Part shown: positions 11,546-35,770 of the stretch, piece after piece
Layout of the letters: every line of letters begins with the position of its first letter
Position numbering within the stretch: position 1 is the stretch's first letter
Assembly: GCA_020849495.1 (NCBI GenBank)
Contig: JADLGD010000224.1
Location: 1-64,000 of the forward strand
DNA from: Fluviicola sp.
GTDB taxonomy: Bacteria; Bacteroidota; Bacteroidia; Flavobacteriales_D; Crocinitomicaceae
Reading direction: 5' to 3'
DNA length: 64,000 bases
The notes under the pieces: generated by a model
The model's database searches: none
What the model saw: the letters and a program-made list of their open reading frames with translations, nothing else
What the model was told of the DNA's origin: nothing
Position numbers and translations under genes: made by a program

Positions 11546-11693
11546 GATTTCGATTTAAGTTTCTATGAAAATAAGTAAAATCGTGGAGCTTTAAAAGATT
11601 TGTTAATCATTGAATTAAAAAATGATAAACGTTACATTTCTTAACTAAATTCAAAGAGGTTTGAAAAACTGAAAAAAAGTTCTAACTATGTAG

Positions 11694-11722
11694 AGTAAAA
11701 CTAAAATTGGTTCGTCTTCCTA
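11694..11722 (+). promoter_or_regulatory. Bipartite promoter-like motif, copy 1 (before ECF sigma gene)
   Basis: AGTAAAAC (11694-11701), nine unconserved bases, then TTCGTCTTCCTA (11711-11722). The same two blocks with the same spacing occur at 14643-14671 before the small His/Cys-rich genes, while flanking and spacer bases differ. CGTC resembles ECF -10 cores. The AAAAC-to-CGTC gap of 11 bp is shorter than the roughly 16 bp typical of ECF promoters, so the exact box boundaries are uncertain. Autoregulation by the sigma factor is the simplest reading. Confidence 0.65.
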
Positions 11723-11749
11723 CACATGGAAGCAGTAATTCAATTAAAC

Positions 11750-12301
11750 ATGTCAGAACAAAAGCGATTTTCCATTACAGATACAGTACAAGAATTTGGG
11801 AAAAAGCTTTTTGGTTTTATCCGTGGTCGCGTGCAATCCAATGAAGATGCGGAAGATATTTTGCAAGAAGTGTGGTACCAGTTTAGCAATCTCACCGCAA
11901 TTGACGAGTTGGAAAATGTCAGTGCGTGGTTATACCGAGTGGCACGCAACAAGGTAACCGACAAATACCGTAAAAAAACAACCGATTCGCTTGAAAATTT
12001 CGCGTATGAAAACGATGACGAAAGCATTGGTTTCAAAGATTTATTGCTACAAGACGATTCAAACAACCCGGAATTGGAGCAGTTCAAAGAGCAATTTTGG
12101 AACGAACTCTTCATTGCCTTGGATGAATTACCCGATAATCAACGAGAAGTTTTTGTATTGAACGAATTGGAGGACATGACCTTGCAAGCTATTGCCGACC
12201 AAACAGGTGAGAGCATCAAAACCATTATTAGTAGAAAACGCTACGCGACCAATTTTTTGCGCAAGCGCTTGAATGATTTATACAACGATTTAAACGATTA
12301 A
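11750..12301 (+). CDS. ECF-type RNA polymerase sigma factor, probably autoregulated
   Basis: 183 residues from the ATG at 11750 (MSEQKRFSITD). Region 2 has the canonical NEDAEDILQEVWYQF and NVSAWLYRVARNKVTDKYRKK. Region 4 has LPDNQREVFVLNELEDMTLQAIADQTGES and KRYATNFLRKRL. An in-frame ATG at 11726 is open, but it lies only 3 bp after the conserved upstream motif. Using 11750 gives a 27-bp gap from motif to ATG, matching the 28 bp before the co-regulated gene at 14700, so 11750 is preferred. It is followed after 2 bp by a small membrane protein gene, with which it forms an operon. The predicted targets are itself and the 14700-15151 operon (inference from the shared promoter motif). Confidence 0.9.
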   Translation: MSEQKRFSITDTVQEFGKKLFGFIRGRVQSNEDAEDILQEVWYQFSNLTAIDELENVSAWLYRVARNKVTDKYRKKTTDSLENFAYENDDESIGFKDLLLQDDSNNPELEQFKEQFWNELFIALDELPDNQREVFVLNELEDMTLQAIADQTGESIKTIISRKRYATNFLRKRLNDLYNDLND

Positions 12302-12303
12302 CG

Positions 12304-12624
12304 ATGAAACGCTTATTTACAGGAAAAATCAAATGGGTTTCTTTTGGAATCCTTTTCATAGGAATGATCTTTGGCTTAGGAGCGATTGTGATGTGGTTGT
12401 GGAACGCCATTTTACCAGATGTGATTGACGTCGTGAAACCAATCTCTTACTGGCAAGCAATGGGAATTTTAGCTTTAAGCAAACTGTTGTTTGGTGGATT
12501 TGGCAAAGGAAAACACCGTGGAGGCCGACCACCATTTGCTAGAAAAGAACTGAAACAAAAATTCATGGAAATGAACGACGAAGAACGTGCTGCCTTCAAA
12601 GAAAAATGGAAAAACCGTTGTTAA
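12304..12624 (+). CDS. Small membrane protein of the ECF locus
   Basis: 106 residues, 2 bp after the sigma gene. One membrane helix lies at about 9-35 (ILFIGMIFGLGAIVMWLWNAI) and a second hydrophobic, amphipathic segment at about 45-66 (YWQAMGILALSKLLFGGFG). A basic Gly/His/Arg linker and a charged C-terminal helix follow (MEMNDEERAAFKEKWKNRC). I recall similar MWLWN...FWQA...LLFGGFG proteins next to ECF sigma genes in other Bacteroidota, but no function assigned to them. By position it could be the anti-sigma factor or an accessory sensor. Its C-terminal helix resembles that of the protein at 14700 (MSEEEYNQFKNNF). No terminator is visible before the convergent kinase gene. Confidence 0.8.
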   Translation: MKRLFTGKIKWVSFGILFIGMIFGLGAIVMWLWNAILPDVIDVVKPISYWQAMGILALSKLLFGGFGKGKHRGGRPPFARKELKQKFMEMNDEERAAFKEKWKNRC

Positions 12625-12664
12625 AGTTAGACGTAATTCCTAAAAGAAAAGTGAAAGTAACCCA

Positions 12665-14566
12665 TTAGCTCAATGGAACTTGAATGAATGTTTGAAAACC
12701 ACTTTGTCGTTCATCTGAATCAACAATGATTTGTCCGTTGATAAATTCCAAGCGCGATTTCAAGCTTTCAAGTCCAAGACCAGTTTTTTGCTTTGAAGCA
12801 TCCATTCCCGAACCGTTATCATCCATGATTAAAATCAAATTTGCGGCATTTTTTCGCAAGACACAACTTACTTCTGTTGCTCCACTGTGTTTCACAATGT
12901 TATTGATCAGTTCTTGAATGATGCGGTACATACTGATCTCGATCTTCTGAGGTAATCGCTCATCAATTCCAAAAACATCAAAGGTGTGTTGAATTGAAAC
13001 TGGCGTTAAACTACGATTGAACAGTTCTTCCAAGGCTTGAATCAGACCTTTCTCTTGCAATACAATTGGCATCATTTGATGCGAAATCGTGCGCACTTCA
13101 TTTGACGTTTGTTTGATATGTGCTAACAATTGATTTGCTTGCTCCTGATTTTCACCAGATAATTGCTCCACCAAGCGATAGACATTGTGATAAATTGCCG
13201 TCAAATCTTGCGCTACTCCATCGTGTAAATCTTTTGCAATTCGAGCACGTTCCTTTTCTTCGGTATCGATCATCATTTTCAAACTTTGCTGTTTTTCTTG
13301 GAAAAGAAGCGCTTGTATTTTTTGTTTTTGCTTGGATTTCAATCCTAAAAACAAGGCAATTCCAGATATGACAATCAATAAAATGATGATGATCAAACCA
13401 ATGCGGATGGTGGTAGCTTTTTGAATGACTGAACGTTGTTGCTTTATTTTATTGTTCTTCTTCTCGACATTGTATTTGGTTTGCAATTCCAAAAGTTGCT
13501 TATTGGATGATTCGGAAAAAAACTGTTCTTTCTTTTTCTGAAACGATTCCTGAAGTATAAATGCTTGTTTGTAATCACCCATTGCCGAATAAGTTCCAAT
13601 TAAATTTTCCAAGGCGTCCAATTCCACATTTGAAAGTTTGATTTGTCTAGCAATATCAAGTGCTTGTTGATGGTGAAACAATGATTGATCGTATTGTTTT
13701 AAGTCTTTATATAACGCACCAATGTTACTTAATGCCGTACATTCAATGGATTTTGATTTCATTTTTCGCCCCATATCGAGTGCTTTTTTGAAATATTCCA
13801 AAGCTTTGTCTATGTCTTGCAAGTAATAGTAAACTCCTCCAATAGTGTTGTAATTCCAATAAAGTTCTGAATATTCCTTTAACTCTTCTCGTATCCTAGC
13901 AGATTCTTCAAAATAAACCAAAGCACTATCAAAATCTCCTGTTTGTGTAAATGACAAACCATAAGTAAGTTTAGCTGCCCCAAGTAAGGATTTGTCTTGC
14001 TCTTGTTCTGCAATTTTTATCGCCTTTTTAATGAAAAATTGTGCGTTTTTGACTTTGTTGAACTTGATGTAAACGTCTCCCAAATTCACATACATCCGCC
14101 CAATTTTTCGATTGTTATGGAATTTCTCTTGCAGTTTAATGGACTTGAAAACATACCCAATGCCTTTTTCAAATTCTCCATTATCGATTAAATTGGCACT
14201 GATGTTTCCATAAATATCTGCTAACATTTTTTCGTCATGGTGAAGCAGTGCTAACTTTTCTGCTTTGTAATTATTGACCAATGCACTATCATAGGCTCCT
14301 TGACTTTTGAATAGCAATGCTAAATTTCGATATGCTTCAACCGTGTGATAATAACTATTCACTTTTTGTGCTAAGACCAATCGTTTTCTCGACCAAACCA
14401 TCGCTGCTTCAGGGTTTTTCTTCAGATTTGATTCGATTGCTTGTTCGTATAGTTTAAGCTTTTGCGCGTCCGAAGATTGATTGATTCGTTGTTGAAAATC
14501 AGAAGTATTGCTAGAATAAGAAAGCAAGTGGATACTGAGAAAGAATAGAAAAGTTAGAAATTTCAT
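12665..14566 (-). CDS. TPR-containing histidine kinase (HisKA_3/NarX type)
   Basis: 633 residues. The signal peptide is about 1-18. Tetratricopeptide repeats fill about 75-345 (for example YWNYNTIGGVYYYLQDIDKALEYF), followed by a coiled coil and one membrane helix at about 387-409. The dimerisation/phosphoacceptor domain (EKERARIAKDLHDG, H448) and an HATPase_c domain follow, with N box ELINNIVKHSGA, G1 MDDNGSGMD and G2 TGLGLESL. The TPR part is periplasmic or membrane-proximal and the kinase part cytoplasmic. Family members phosphorylate LuxR/NarL-type response regulators, but none is encoded beside it, so it is an orphan kinase. It lies between the sigma factor operon and the small His/Cys-rich operon and is divergent from the latter, so it may belong to the same response. 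Confidence 0.9.
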   Translation of the reverse strand: MKFLTFLFFLSIHLLSYSSNTSDFQQRINQSSDAQKLKLYEQAIESNLKKNPEAAMVWSRKRLVLAQKVNSYYHTVEAYRNLALLFKSQGAYDSALVNNYKAEKLALLHHDEKMLADIYGNISANLIDNGEFEKGIGYVFKSIKLQEKFHNNRKIGRMYVNLGDVYIKFNKVKNAQFFIKKAIKIAEQEQDKSLLGAAKLTYGLSFTQTGDFDSALVYFEESARIREELKEYSELYWNYNTIGGVYYYLQDIDKALEYFKKALDMGRKMKSKSIECTALSNIGALYKDLKQYDQSLFHHQQALDIARQIKLSNVELDALENLIGTYSAMGDYKQAFILQESFQKKKEQFFSESSNKQLLELQTKYNVEKKNNKIKQQRSVIQKATTIRIGLIIIILLIVISGIALFLGLKSKQKQKIQALLFQEKQQSLKMMIDTEEKERARIAKDLHDGVAQDLTAIYHNVYRLVEQLSGENQEQANQLLAHIKQTSNEVRTISHQMMPIVLQEKGLIQALEELFNRSLTPVSIQHTFDVFGIDERLPQKIEISMYRIIQELINNIVKHSGATEVSCVLRKNAANLILIMDDNGSGMDASKQKTGLGLESLKSRLEFINGQIIVDSDERQSGFQTFIQVPLS

Positions 14567-14642
14567 TGGTTCAATCGTGTGTGAATATGATGATAAAAGT
14601 AACTGAAAGTGAATAAGATTACAAATTGTTTCACCAGTTTAA

Positions 14643-14671
14643 AGTAAAACCATGAGTACTTCGTCTTCCTA
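14643..14671 (+). promoter_or_regulatory. Bipartite promoter-like motif, copy 2 (before His/Cys-rich operon)
   Basis: AGTAAAAC (14643-14650), nine bases, TTCGTCTTCCTA (14660-14671); both blocks are identical to those at 11694-11722. It ends 28 bp before the ATG at 14700. Confidence 0.65.
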
Positions 14672-14699: not shown

Positions 14700-14963
14700 A
14701 TGACAAAAACAATTTTAAAATCAGCATTCTTTGGGGCATTAGTTGGAGCACTTCTATTCTTTGTTCCAGGATTCATTCTAACGATTCTGATCGTATCACT
14801 CGTATTTAAACTGGTATTCCGCAGAAAAATGCGCAGTGGTAAATTCCAACAACACCGCCTTGCTTTCATGGATAAAGTAAGAAACATGAGTGAAGAAGAA
14901 TATAACCAATTCAAGAATAATTTCTCAAAAGGTCATTGTCACGCTCATTGTCACTCGTGTTAA
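14700..14963 (+). CDS. Small membrane protein with His/Cys-rich tail
   Basis: 87 residues. One long hydrophobic region (about 8-38, FFGALVGALLFFVPGFILTILIVSLVF) is followed by a basic stretch (FRRKMRSGKFQQHR), a short acidic helix (NMSEEEYNQFKNNF) and the terminal sequence GHCHAHCHSC. The tail has three Cys and three His in ten residues and is a likely soft-metal site (copper, zinc or nickel; the metal is not decided by sequence). It is preceded by the same bipartite motif as the ECF sigma gene, and is followed 20 bp later by another tiny His-rich gene. I know of no named family. Proposed role: metal-binding effector or sensor of the sigma factor's regulon (inference). Confidence 0.8.
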   Translation: MTKTILKSAFFGALVGALLFFVPGFILTILIVSLVFKLVFRRKMRSGKFQQHRLAFMDKVRNMSEEEYNQFKNNFSKGHCHAHCHSC

Positions 14964-14983: not shown

Positions 14984-15151
14984 ATGAAAAGAAAAAGAAT
15001 AGCAATCATCACTGCTTTTGCAGCAGCCAGCATCACTTTTGGTTCGTTAATGGCAACCATCGGACATCACCGATTTAACAGACATTGTCATTCACACGCC
15101 ATGCTTTGCTCCCAAACAAATGCGCAGCAGCAACACAACGCTCATCATTAA
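14984..15151 (+). CDS. 55-residue His-rich exported or membrane peptide
   Basis: A short frame of 55 codons, 20 bp after the preceding stop and directly before a good terminator. The peptide begins MKRKRIAIITAFAAASITFG, a typical n-region plus hydrophobic core of a signal or anchor. It continues with GHHRFNRHCHSHAMLCSQ and ends NAHH. About one residue in five of the part after the hydrophobic core is His, with two Cys. The HCHSHAM segment parallels HCHAHCHSC in the upstream protein. Together with the operon position and terminator, this supports a real gene despite its size. The likely function is periplasmic metal binding; no homolog is recognised from memory. Confidence 0.7.
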   Translation: MKRKRIAIITAFAAASITFGSLMATIGHHRFNRHCHSHAMLCSQTNAQQQHNAHH

Positions 15152-17311: not shown

Positions 17312-17875
17312 TTGTTTAAACGGAAACCGCATATTGCCCTTTCAGAAGCCGAACAAATTCAGCTCGCCCAAAAAGACCATCGTTATTTTGGTCCTTTGTA
17401 TGAAAAGTACTTCGAAATGATGTACCGTTTTATTTTCAAACGCTTGGGAGGAAAAGAAGAAATTGCAGGTGATTTAGTGCAGCAAACCTTTATCAAAGCA
17501 ATGGCTAACATTGGCAAATACGAAGACCGAGGATTACCATTTAGTGCGTGGTTGTATCGCATTGCGCAAAATGAAGTCAACATGTATTTCCGATCTCAAA
17601 AAAACAATTACACTGTAGAAATTACTGACAGGCAGGTGATTGGAATTTTAGAAGAAGCGGGCGAAAATGAATTTACACAAGAAGATTTACAGCAATTAAT
17701 TGAAATAATCAATAACTTAGAAGAAAGCCAAATAGAAATCATAGAGTTGCGATTCTTTCAAGAAATGAGTTTCAAAGAAATCGCAGACATCTATTCAATA
17801 AGTGAAGCGAATGCAAAAATGCGTTTGTATCGACTGTTAGAGAAGATCAAACAACAATGGAAAAAGCAATCATGA
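17312..17875 (+). CDS. ECF-type RNA polymerase sigma factor, TTG start
   Basis: 187 residues. Region 2 is at about 27-95 (YEKYFEMMYRFIFKRLGGKEEIAGDLVQQTFIKAM and FSAWLYRIAQNEVNMYFR, quoted in part only as family signatures). Region 4 includes SFKEIADIYSISEANAKMRL. A TAA in frame at 17291 and the lack of any ATG before region 2 leave TTG at 17312 as the only reasonable start. AAGGAA at 17292-17297 lies 14 bp before it, rather far for a Shine-Dalgarno site. The stop overlaps the start of the next gene (ATGA), so the pair is translationally coupled. Confidence 0.88.
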   Translation: MFKRKPHIALSEAEQIQLAQKDHRYFGPLYEKYFEMMYRFIFKRLGGKEEIAGDLVQQTFIKAMANIGKYEDRGLPFSAWLYRIAQNEVNMYFRSQKNNYTVEITDRQVIGILEEAGENEFTQEDLQQLIEIINNLEESQIEIIELRFFQEMSFKEIADIYSISEANAKMRLYRLLEKIKQQWKKQS

Positions 17876-34894: not shown

Positions 34895-35770
34895 CTATTT
34901 TCCTTTCAAAGCTTCAGCACCACCTACGATCTCAAGGATTTCGTTTGTAATAGCAGCTTGACGCGCTTTGTTGTAGCTCAATTTAAGGTTACGTTGCAAT
35001 TCTGACGCATTGTCTGTTGCTTTGTGCATTGCAGTCATACGTGCACCGTGCTCAGAAGCATGTGAATCCAATACCGCTTTGAACAATTGAATTTTCAATG
35101 ATTTTGGAATCAAATCCTCAACGATTTCCTCTTTAGAAGGTTCGAAGATGTAATCACCGATTTGAGCACCTTCTGATTGCGTTGCTTGAATCGGTAACAA
35201 TTGTTCCGCTTTCACCAATTGAGAAGCAGCATTTACGAATTGATTGTAAACAACAACGACTTTATCGAAACGTTTGTCCAAGAACGCATCCATTGAGAAT
35301 TGCGCAATTTGAGCAATTGTATCAAATGAAAGGTTAGCAAAAACATCTTCAGCAATCCCTGTTCCTTCAATGTTGAAGTACATATCAGAACGTTTGAAAG
35401 CGTCTTTTGCTTTTTTACCTAAACACAACAATTGTACATTTTGACCAGCAAAATCTTCAATCACCAATTGGTTCACGCGTTTAATGATGTTGTTATTGAA
35501 ACCACCACACAAACCTCTGTTAGAAGTAACAGCAATGATCAACACATTTTTTGTATCGCGTTCAGCTGCCAAAGCATTTTCTGAAATATCCAAAGAAGCA
35601 CTTAAGTTCCCTAATATTTCTTGCAATTTTTCAGCATAAGGACGCATTTGCGTAATTGCATCTTGCGCACGTTTCAATTTCGCAGCAGAAACCATTTTCA
35701 TTGCAGAAGTAATCTGCATCGTAGATCCTACTGACGTAATTCGATTGCGTATTTCCTTTAAACTTGGCAT
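34895..35770 (-). CDS. atpG: ATP synthase F1 subunit gamma
   Basis: 291 residues, normal length. The gamma subunit is the central rotor stalk linking c-ring rotation to the catalytic hexamer at the cytoplasmic membrane. The N-terminal helix MPSLKEIRNRITSVGSTMQI and the C-terminal AARMTAMHKATDNA-like segment (here GARMTAMHKATDNASEL) are diagnostic. It is the last gene of the operon, 68 bp after atpA. That gap holds a strong 16-bp hairpin, annotated separately. The operon lacks beta and epsilon, which in Bacteroidota are commonly encoded elsewhere. Confidence 0.98.
   Translation of the reverse strand: MPSLKEIRNRITSVGSTMQITSAMKMVSAAKLKRAQDAITQMRPYAEKLQEILGNLSASLDISENALAAERDTKNVLIIAVTSNRGLCGGFNNNIIKRVNQLVIEDFAGQNVQLLCLGKKAKDAFKRSDMYFNIEGTGIAEDVFANLSFDTIAQIAQFSMDAFLDKRFDKVVVVYNQFVNAASQLVKAEQLLPIQATQSEGAQIGDYIFEPSKEEIVEDLIPKSLKIQLFKAVLDSHASEHGARMTAMHKATDNASELQRNLKLSYNKARQAAITNEILEIVGGAEALKGK

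Follow-up and report, generated by a model that had tools for sequence, protein, structure and literature searches.

Two copies of a bipartite element in a 64,000-nucleotide stretch of DNA from Fluviicola sp. (the window) are, with high probability, promoters recognized by the ECF sigma factor whose gene adjoins them (Table 1). The case is built on the observed conservation of the sites, gene linkage, co-occurrence and specificity, from which binding by the sigma factor, the points at which transcription starts, a role for the neighbouring protein A and an inducing signal are predicted. The regulon would be tiny, consisting of the sigma gene with gene A, an operon for two further small membrane proteins (B and C) and, probably, a gene of TolC type.

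Table 1. Features of the sigma factor locus, in window coordinates
Feature	Position	Strand	Basis or remark
Promoter 1 (sigma gene's own)	11690..11719	+	conserved before sigma orthologues; 29.0 bits
Predicted transcription start, sigma operon	11726	+	tenth base after CGTC; inferred
ECF sigma factor gene	11750..12301	+	Pfam cut-offs exceeded for Sigma70_r2 and Sigma70_r4_2/r4
Protein A, 106 aa, two-TM hairpin and a basic C-terminal tail, predicted to be cytoplasmic	12304..12624	+	next gene; co-occurrence
Promoter 2 (before B-C)	14639..14668	+	29.1 bits; second site at 75/80 related loci
Predicted transcription start, B-C operon	14675	+	A ten bases after CGTC; inferred by analogy
Protein B, 87 aa, small membrane protein with His/Cys-rich tail end	14700..14963	+	position kept in related loci
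Protein C, 55 aa, short His-rich membrane-type protein	14984..15151	+	order and similar sequence in relatives

The motif from which the analysis started had been described in an earlier note on this DNA, and its description was exact: AGTAAAACTAAAATTGGTTCGTCTTCCTA at 11694-11722 and AGTAAAACCATGAGTACTTCGTCTTCCTA at 14643-14671, both read in the window, are identical at 20 of 20 block positions and 3 of 9 spacer positions, and end 27 and 28 bp before the ATGs at 11750 and 14700. It was also correct in finding the motif before no other gene of the window, since a search allowing up to three mismatches returned these two sites (chance mean 0.01) and no third copy, and none of 100 shuffles gave two matches. 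The whole genome (3.69 Mb, in 265 contigs) held one extra match, with three mismatches; a reversed control pattern gave one match as well. The motif is real, and its two copies in the window are far above chance. To attribute them to chance, or to recent duplication of a functionless stretch, one could point to the complete identity of the blocks, but the spacers and flanks of the two copies differ from each other, which led us to reject recent duplication as their source, and in distant genera the pattern is found again at both positions; the probability that we allow such an origin is negligible. An RNA element was likewise considered and rejected, as there was no Rfam match (two chance matches were far below gathering scores).

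A scan of contigs yielded 80 related loci, from Fluviicola, Emticicia, Lacihabitans, Kaistella, Chryseobacterium, Sphingobacterium, Chitinophagales and others. In 75/80 of them a strict form of the element (GTAAA-N13-15-CGTC) precedes the sigma gene by no more than 160 bp, most of the other five having a degenerate upstream form, and at least one further site occurs downstream in 75/80, typically before the gene for B. Because this collection is dominated by Chryseobacterium, an independent, even sample of the phylum Bacteroidota was taken, comprising 395 genomes, 84 of them with the sigma family at E<=1e-35 (a cut-off at which members of neighbouring groups may be counted too). Here the element was present within 110 bp upstream in 27 of 30 loci (the window included), as against 26 of 600 random stretches of the same loci. 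A few loci, L060, L183 and L184, have no clear upstream site. One and the same element stands before the sigma gene and before its putative targets, and the orthologues of the sigma gene keep it. Such conservation before sigma orthologues, with a second site downstream at related loci, backs the original suggestion that the motif is a promoter element.

The blocks as first drawn are exact in sequence, but the functional element suggested by divergent relatives has other boundaries. Its -35 block, TTAAAGTAA(A/T), begins four bases before the block of the earlier note and is followed, after N13/14, by CGTC and then WWC, which is the form in which the TTCCTA at the end of the earlier motif is partially conserved. 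CGTC is present in nearly all sites, and the spacer has 13 bp, or 14 in the majority of the sigma promoters of Chryseobacterium. At promoter 1, the -35 block is GTAGAGTAAA (11690-11699), differing at two places from the consensus TTAAAGTAAA, and a 13-bp spacer leads to CGTC (11713-11716), then TTC; promoter 2, with TTAAAGTAAA itself (14639-14648), a 13-bp spacer, CGTC (14662-14665) and TTC, is an exact match to the phylum consensus.

The spacing of ECF promoters has a reference value of 16-17, and GGAAC is not used by every ECF group. The present element lacks the classic GGAAC at -35, having TTAAAGTAA in its place, and as GGAAC is not universal we read TTAAAGTAA as a group-specific variant; the -10 sequence CGTC stands at an ECF-like distance from it. 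If the A-tract of TTAAAGTAA is set on that of the E. coli RpoE -35 box, GGAACTT (PMC8103513), TAAAG and CGTC are 17-18 bp apart across the sites. The earlier note had seen a gap shorter than in classic ECF promoters, and had suggested an atypical element or the involvement of a second DNA-binding protein. The gap appeared short because the -35 block had been truncated: once the block is extended, TAAAG and CGTC stand 17 bp apart, a usual distance in ECF promoters, and therefore neither an atypical reading nor a second protein is needed.

The tenth base after CGTC is A in 22 of 26 divergent loci, and we predict that transcription begins about there, which would give 5' UTRs of 24 and 25 nt, from 11726 and 14675, to the ATGs at 11750 and 14700. 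The 5' UTRs of Flavobacterium psychrophilum have a median of 24 nt, and a CGT box occupies the -10 region of its mapped ECF promoters (PMC9723704). Another ATG in the frame of the sigma gene begins earlier, at 11726, 3 bp past the first copy of the motif, and an in-frame ATG at the predicted sigma start (here 11726-11749), 7-12 codons before the family Met, is found in 12/26 divergent loci; it may permit leaderless translation of a longer form of the sigma factor. Just upstream of the ECF promoter, at 11660-11690, is a sequence (TTTG-N19-TAACTATG), seen by eye, that resembles the Bacteroidota housekeeping promoter (TTTG / TAnnTTTG) and may serve the sigma gene as a second, basal promoter.

Might the element be instead the operator of a separate DNA-binding regulator acting on both operons? 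The sequence of the blocks is in itself no proof of binding by a sigma factor, and the -35 block departs from the classic GGAAC; yet the two blocks are asymmetric, with fixed spacing and no dyad, CGTC is at the place of a -10 sequence with a conserved A ten bases on, and the constant companion of the element is an ECF gene, no separate regulator gene being common to the loci that were read. We consider an operator very improbable.

The gene preceded by promoter 1 encodes a sigma factor of 183 aa (from the ATG at 11750; 191 aa from that at 11726), the second Met being aligned in 12/12 representatives. With regions 2 and 4 alone and a length in the range of about 180-190 aa, the protein belongs to the ECF (group IV) factors, and it scored above the cut-offs for Sigma70_r2 (42.5 bits, cut-off 24), Sigma70_r4_2 (34.8, cut-off 25.7) and sigma70-ECF TIGR02937 (76.1, cut-off 42.9). 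Three more narrowly defined NCBIfam models, TIGR02985 (Bacteroidetes), PRK12513 and GFO_1088/PG0214, represent the same sigma-70 ECF superfamily and align over most of its length, but the scores are below their curated cut-offs (83.7/126.4, 109.8/206 and 68.7/130, respectively), so it is not a member of any of the three. Its closest relatives by sequence in the PDB include SigW and RpoE. Searches of the literature turned up no account of this sigma factor or of the family.

A weight matrix was made from 39 training sites, without any Fluviicola sequence, and its expectations were taken from a first-order model of the window. After the two promoters (scores in Table 1), the next best score in the window was 13.4 bits, and at the score of either promoter about 7e-4 matches are expected per genome. 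The sigma gene is present in 3 of 14 genomes of the genus (G000, G009 and G011), and within the genus the pair of sites is confined to these three; the seven matches in other genomes of the genus are all within coding regions. Eleven further genomes that carry the sigma gene contain 16 exact matches, 14 of them at the sigma locus; one of the remaining two is in a coding region and the other is 38 bp upstream of a gene read as encoding a metallo-beta-lactamase-fold protein. The latter site, an exact consensus in Kaistella soli (G065:C12:521512, L207), marks a possible extra target. The window contains a second ECF gene (17312-17875), and promoter use can overlap between ECF factors, a point taken up in PMC9723704, so that the element could conceivably be read by another ECF factor, such as this one, which would control our sigma gene in a cascade; but the site pair occurs in the genus only where our sigma gene does, and tracks it across the phylum, and we regard a cascade as more improbable even than an operator.

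The genome-wide search also bears on how many genes the sigma factor would control. A small set of envelope genes had been anticipated, and the targets are indeed few, although even fewer than was thought: the two promoters of the locus and, probably, that of one TolC-type gene. A many-gene envelope regulon was rejected, since the search gave a single further plausible site. This site (G000:C61:35464, locus L203) is flanked by a TetR-type gene and one of TolC type, within which the contig ends; its score is 22.4 bits, at which 0.09 matches are expected genome-wide. No comparable site was found before the orthologous TolC-type gene in the 13 other genomes of the genus, including the carriers G009 and G011, and the tetR-tolC gap is some tens of bases in the three upstream stretches read. 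The extra DNA at L203 resembles the beginning of gene B (3 of 1000 shuffles were as good) and also its end (0 of 1000), as if an internally deleted copy of B had brought the promoter to tolC. Promoter capture of this kind at 35464-35626, in this species alone, is suggestive only, because the match to the end of B partly overlaps the ancestral tolC leader. We conclude that the TolC-type gene probably belongs to the sigma regulon of this species.

Gene A starts 2 bp after the sigma gene and follows it in most related loci. A occurs in 11/59 relatives, namely in 10/10 of those with a strong match to the sigma factor (E<=1e-33) and in one other; the membrane protein is encoded beside the sigma gene and co-occurs with it. 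It matches no Pfam or NCBIfam anti-sigma family, indeed no Pfam family at all, and has no relative by sequence in the PDB; AlphaFold models it as helical, though with low confidence (mean pLDDT 64.5, pTM 0.28). The distribution of charges suggests that both its ends are cytoplasmic. From linkage and topology, A is a candidate membrane anti-sigma factor. A periplasmic sensor like CpxP or Metal_resist was considered and not adopted, because just one of 12 members weakly matches Metal_resist (E 0.0078) and the charges place the tail in the cytoplasm.

Proteins resembling A in G017, G023 and G035 have a different tail and adjoin a different ECF gene. At L215, L216 and L217, A-like proteins with the different cytoplasmic tail KWKxYxxFWxEEG are beside a different ECF sigma gene, and the next gene encodes a conserved small protein (about 72 aa). 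A may conceivably found an undescribed Bacteroidota family of anti-sigma factors, comprising a two-TM hairpin with the core LWNxxLP...ITFWQAxGLLVLxKILFGG and interchangeable cytoplasmic tails that correspond to different ECF factors, and B, which would be made from the sigma-dependent second promoter and carries the tail motif of A, would then close a second feedback loop; we offer this tentatively, rating it at somewhat less than an even chance.

The motif in question is a 25-residue C-terminal one common to A and B (hhalign 95%, 25 columns). The order and similar sequence of C are kept in L006, L020, L021, L024, L027, L028, L029 and L060. A gene read as encoding an Hsp20-like small heat-shock protein comes after B-C in L021, L022, L024, L027, L040 and L066, but does not do so in the window. 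Between the sigma and B operons there is a gene for a TPR-containing HisKA_3 histidine kinase (12665-14566, minus strand), which does not belong to the locus in the other genera read.

Taken as a whole, these features are consistent with the following scheme. RNA polymerase with this sigma factor would recognize TTAAAGTAA(A/T) at -35 and CGTC 13-14 bp further on, and would begin transcription some ten bases after CGTC, making an autoregulated transcript of the sigma gene and A from promoter 1, and one of B and C from promoter 2. The tail of A may hold the sigma factor at the membrane until envelope stress frees it, whereupon free sigma factor would bring about synthesis of more sigma factor and A, and induce B, C and, in this species, probably the TolC-type gene.

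An autoregulated pair of ECF promoters with a minimal regulon is a known arrangement, the details of which are new here. In the RpoE system of E. coli and the SigW system of B. subtilis, the sigma gene is likewise transcribed from its own promoter, through a bipartite element with a -10 sequence of the CGT/GTC type, and the spacing found here is within the usual range; but their -35 sequences are GGAACTT or TGAAAC rather than TTAAAGTAA, and their partners are RseA and RsiW, whereas the 106-aa, two-TM protein A is not RseA- or RsiW-like by Pfam. The SM6 promoters of Flavobacterium psychrophilum, in the same phylum, have a CGT box at -10 and include an ECF/anti-sigma pair among their targets, but the SM6 set, which takes in T9SS genes among others, does not include this locus (PMC9723704). 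Few ECF promoters have been defined in Bacteroidota, and the present analysis defines, from sequence alone, a promoter specificity for an ECF family found in about one fifth of the Bacteroidota sampled (84/395), and it provides both a small regulon that can be tested and a candidate for a new family of anti-sigma factors.
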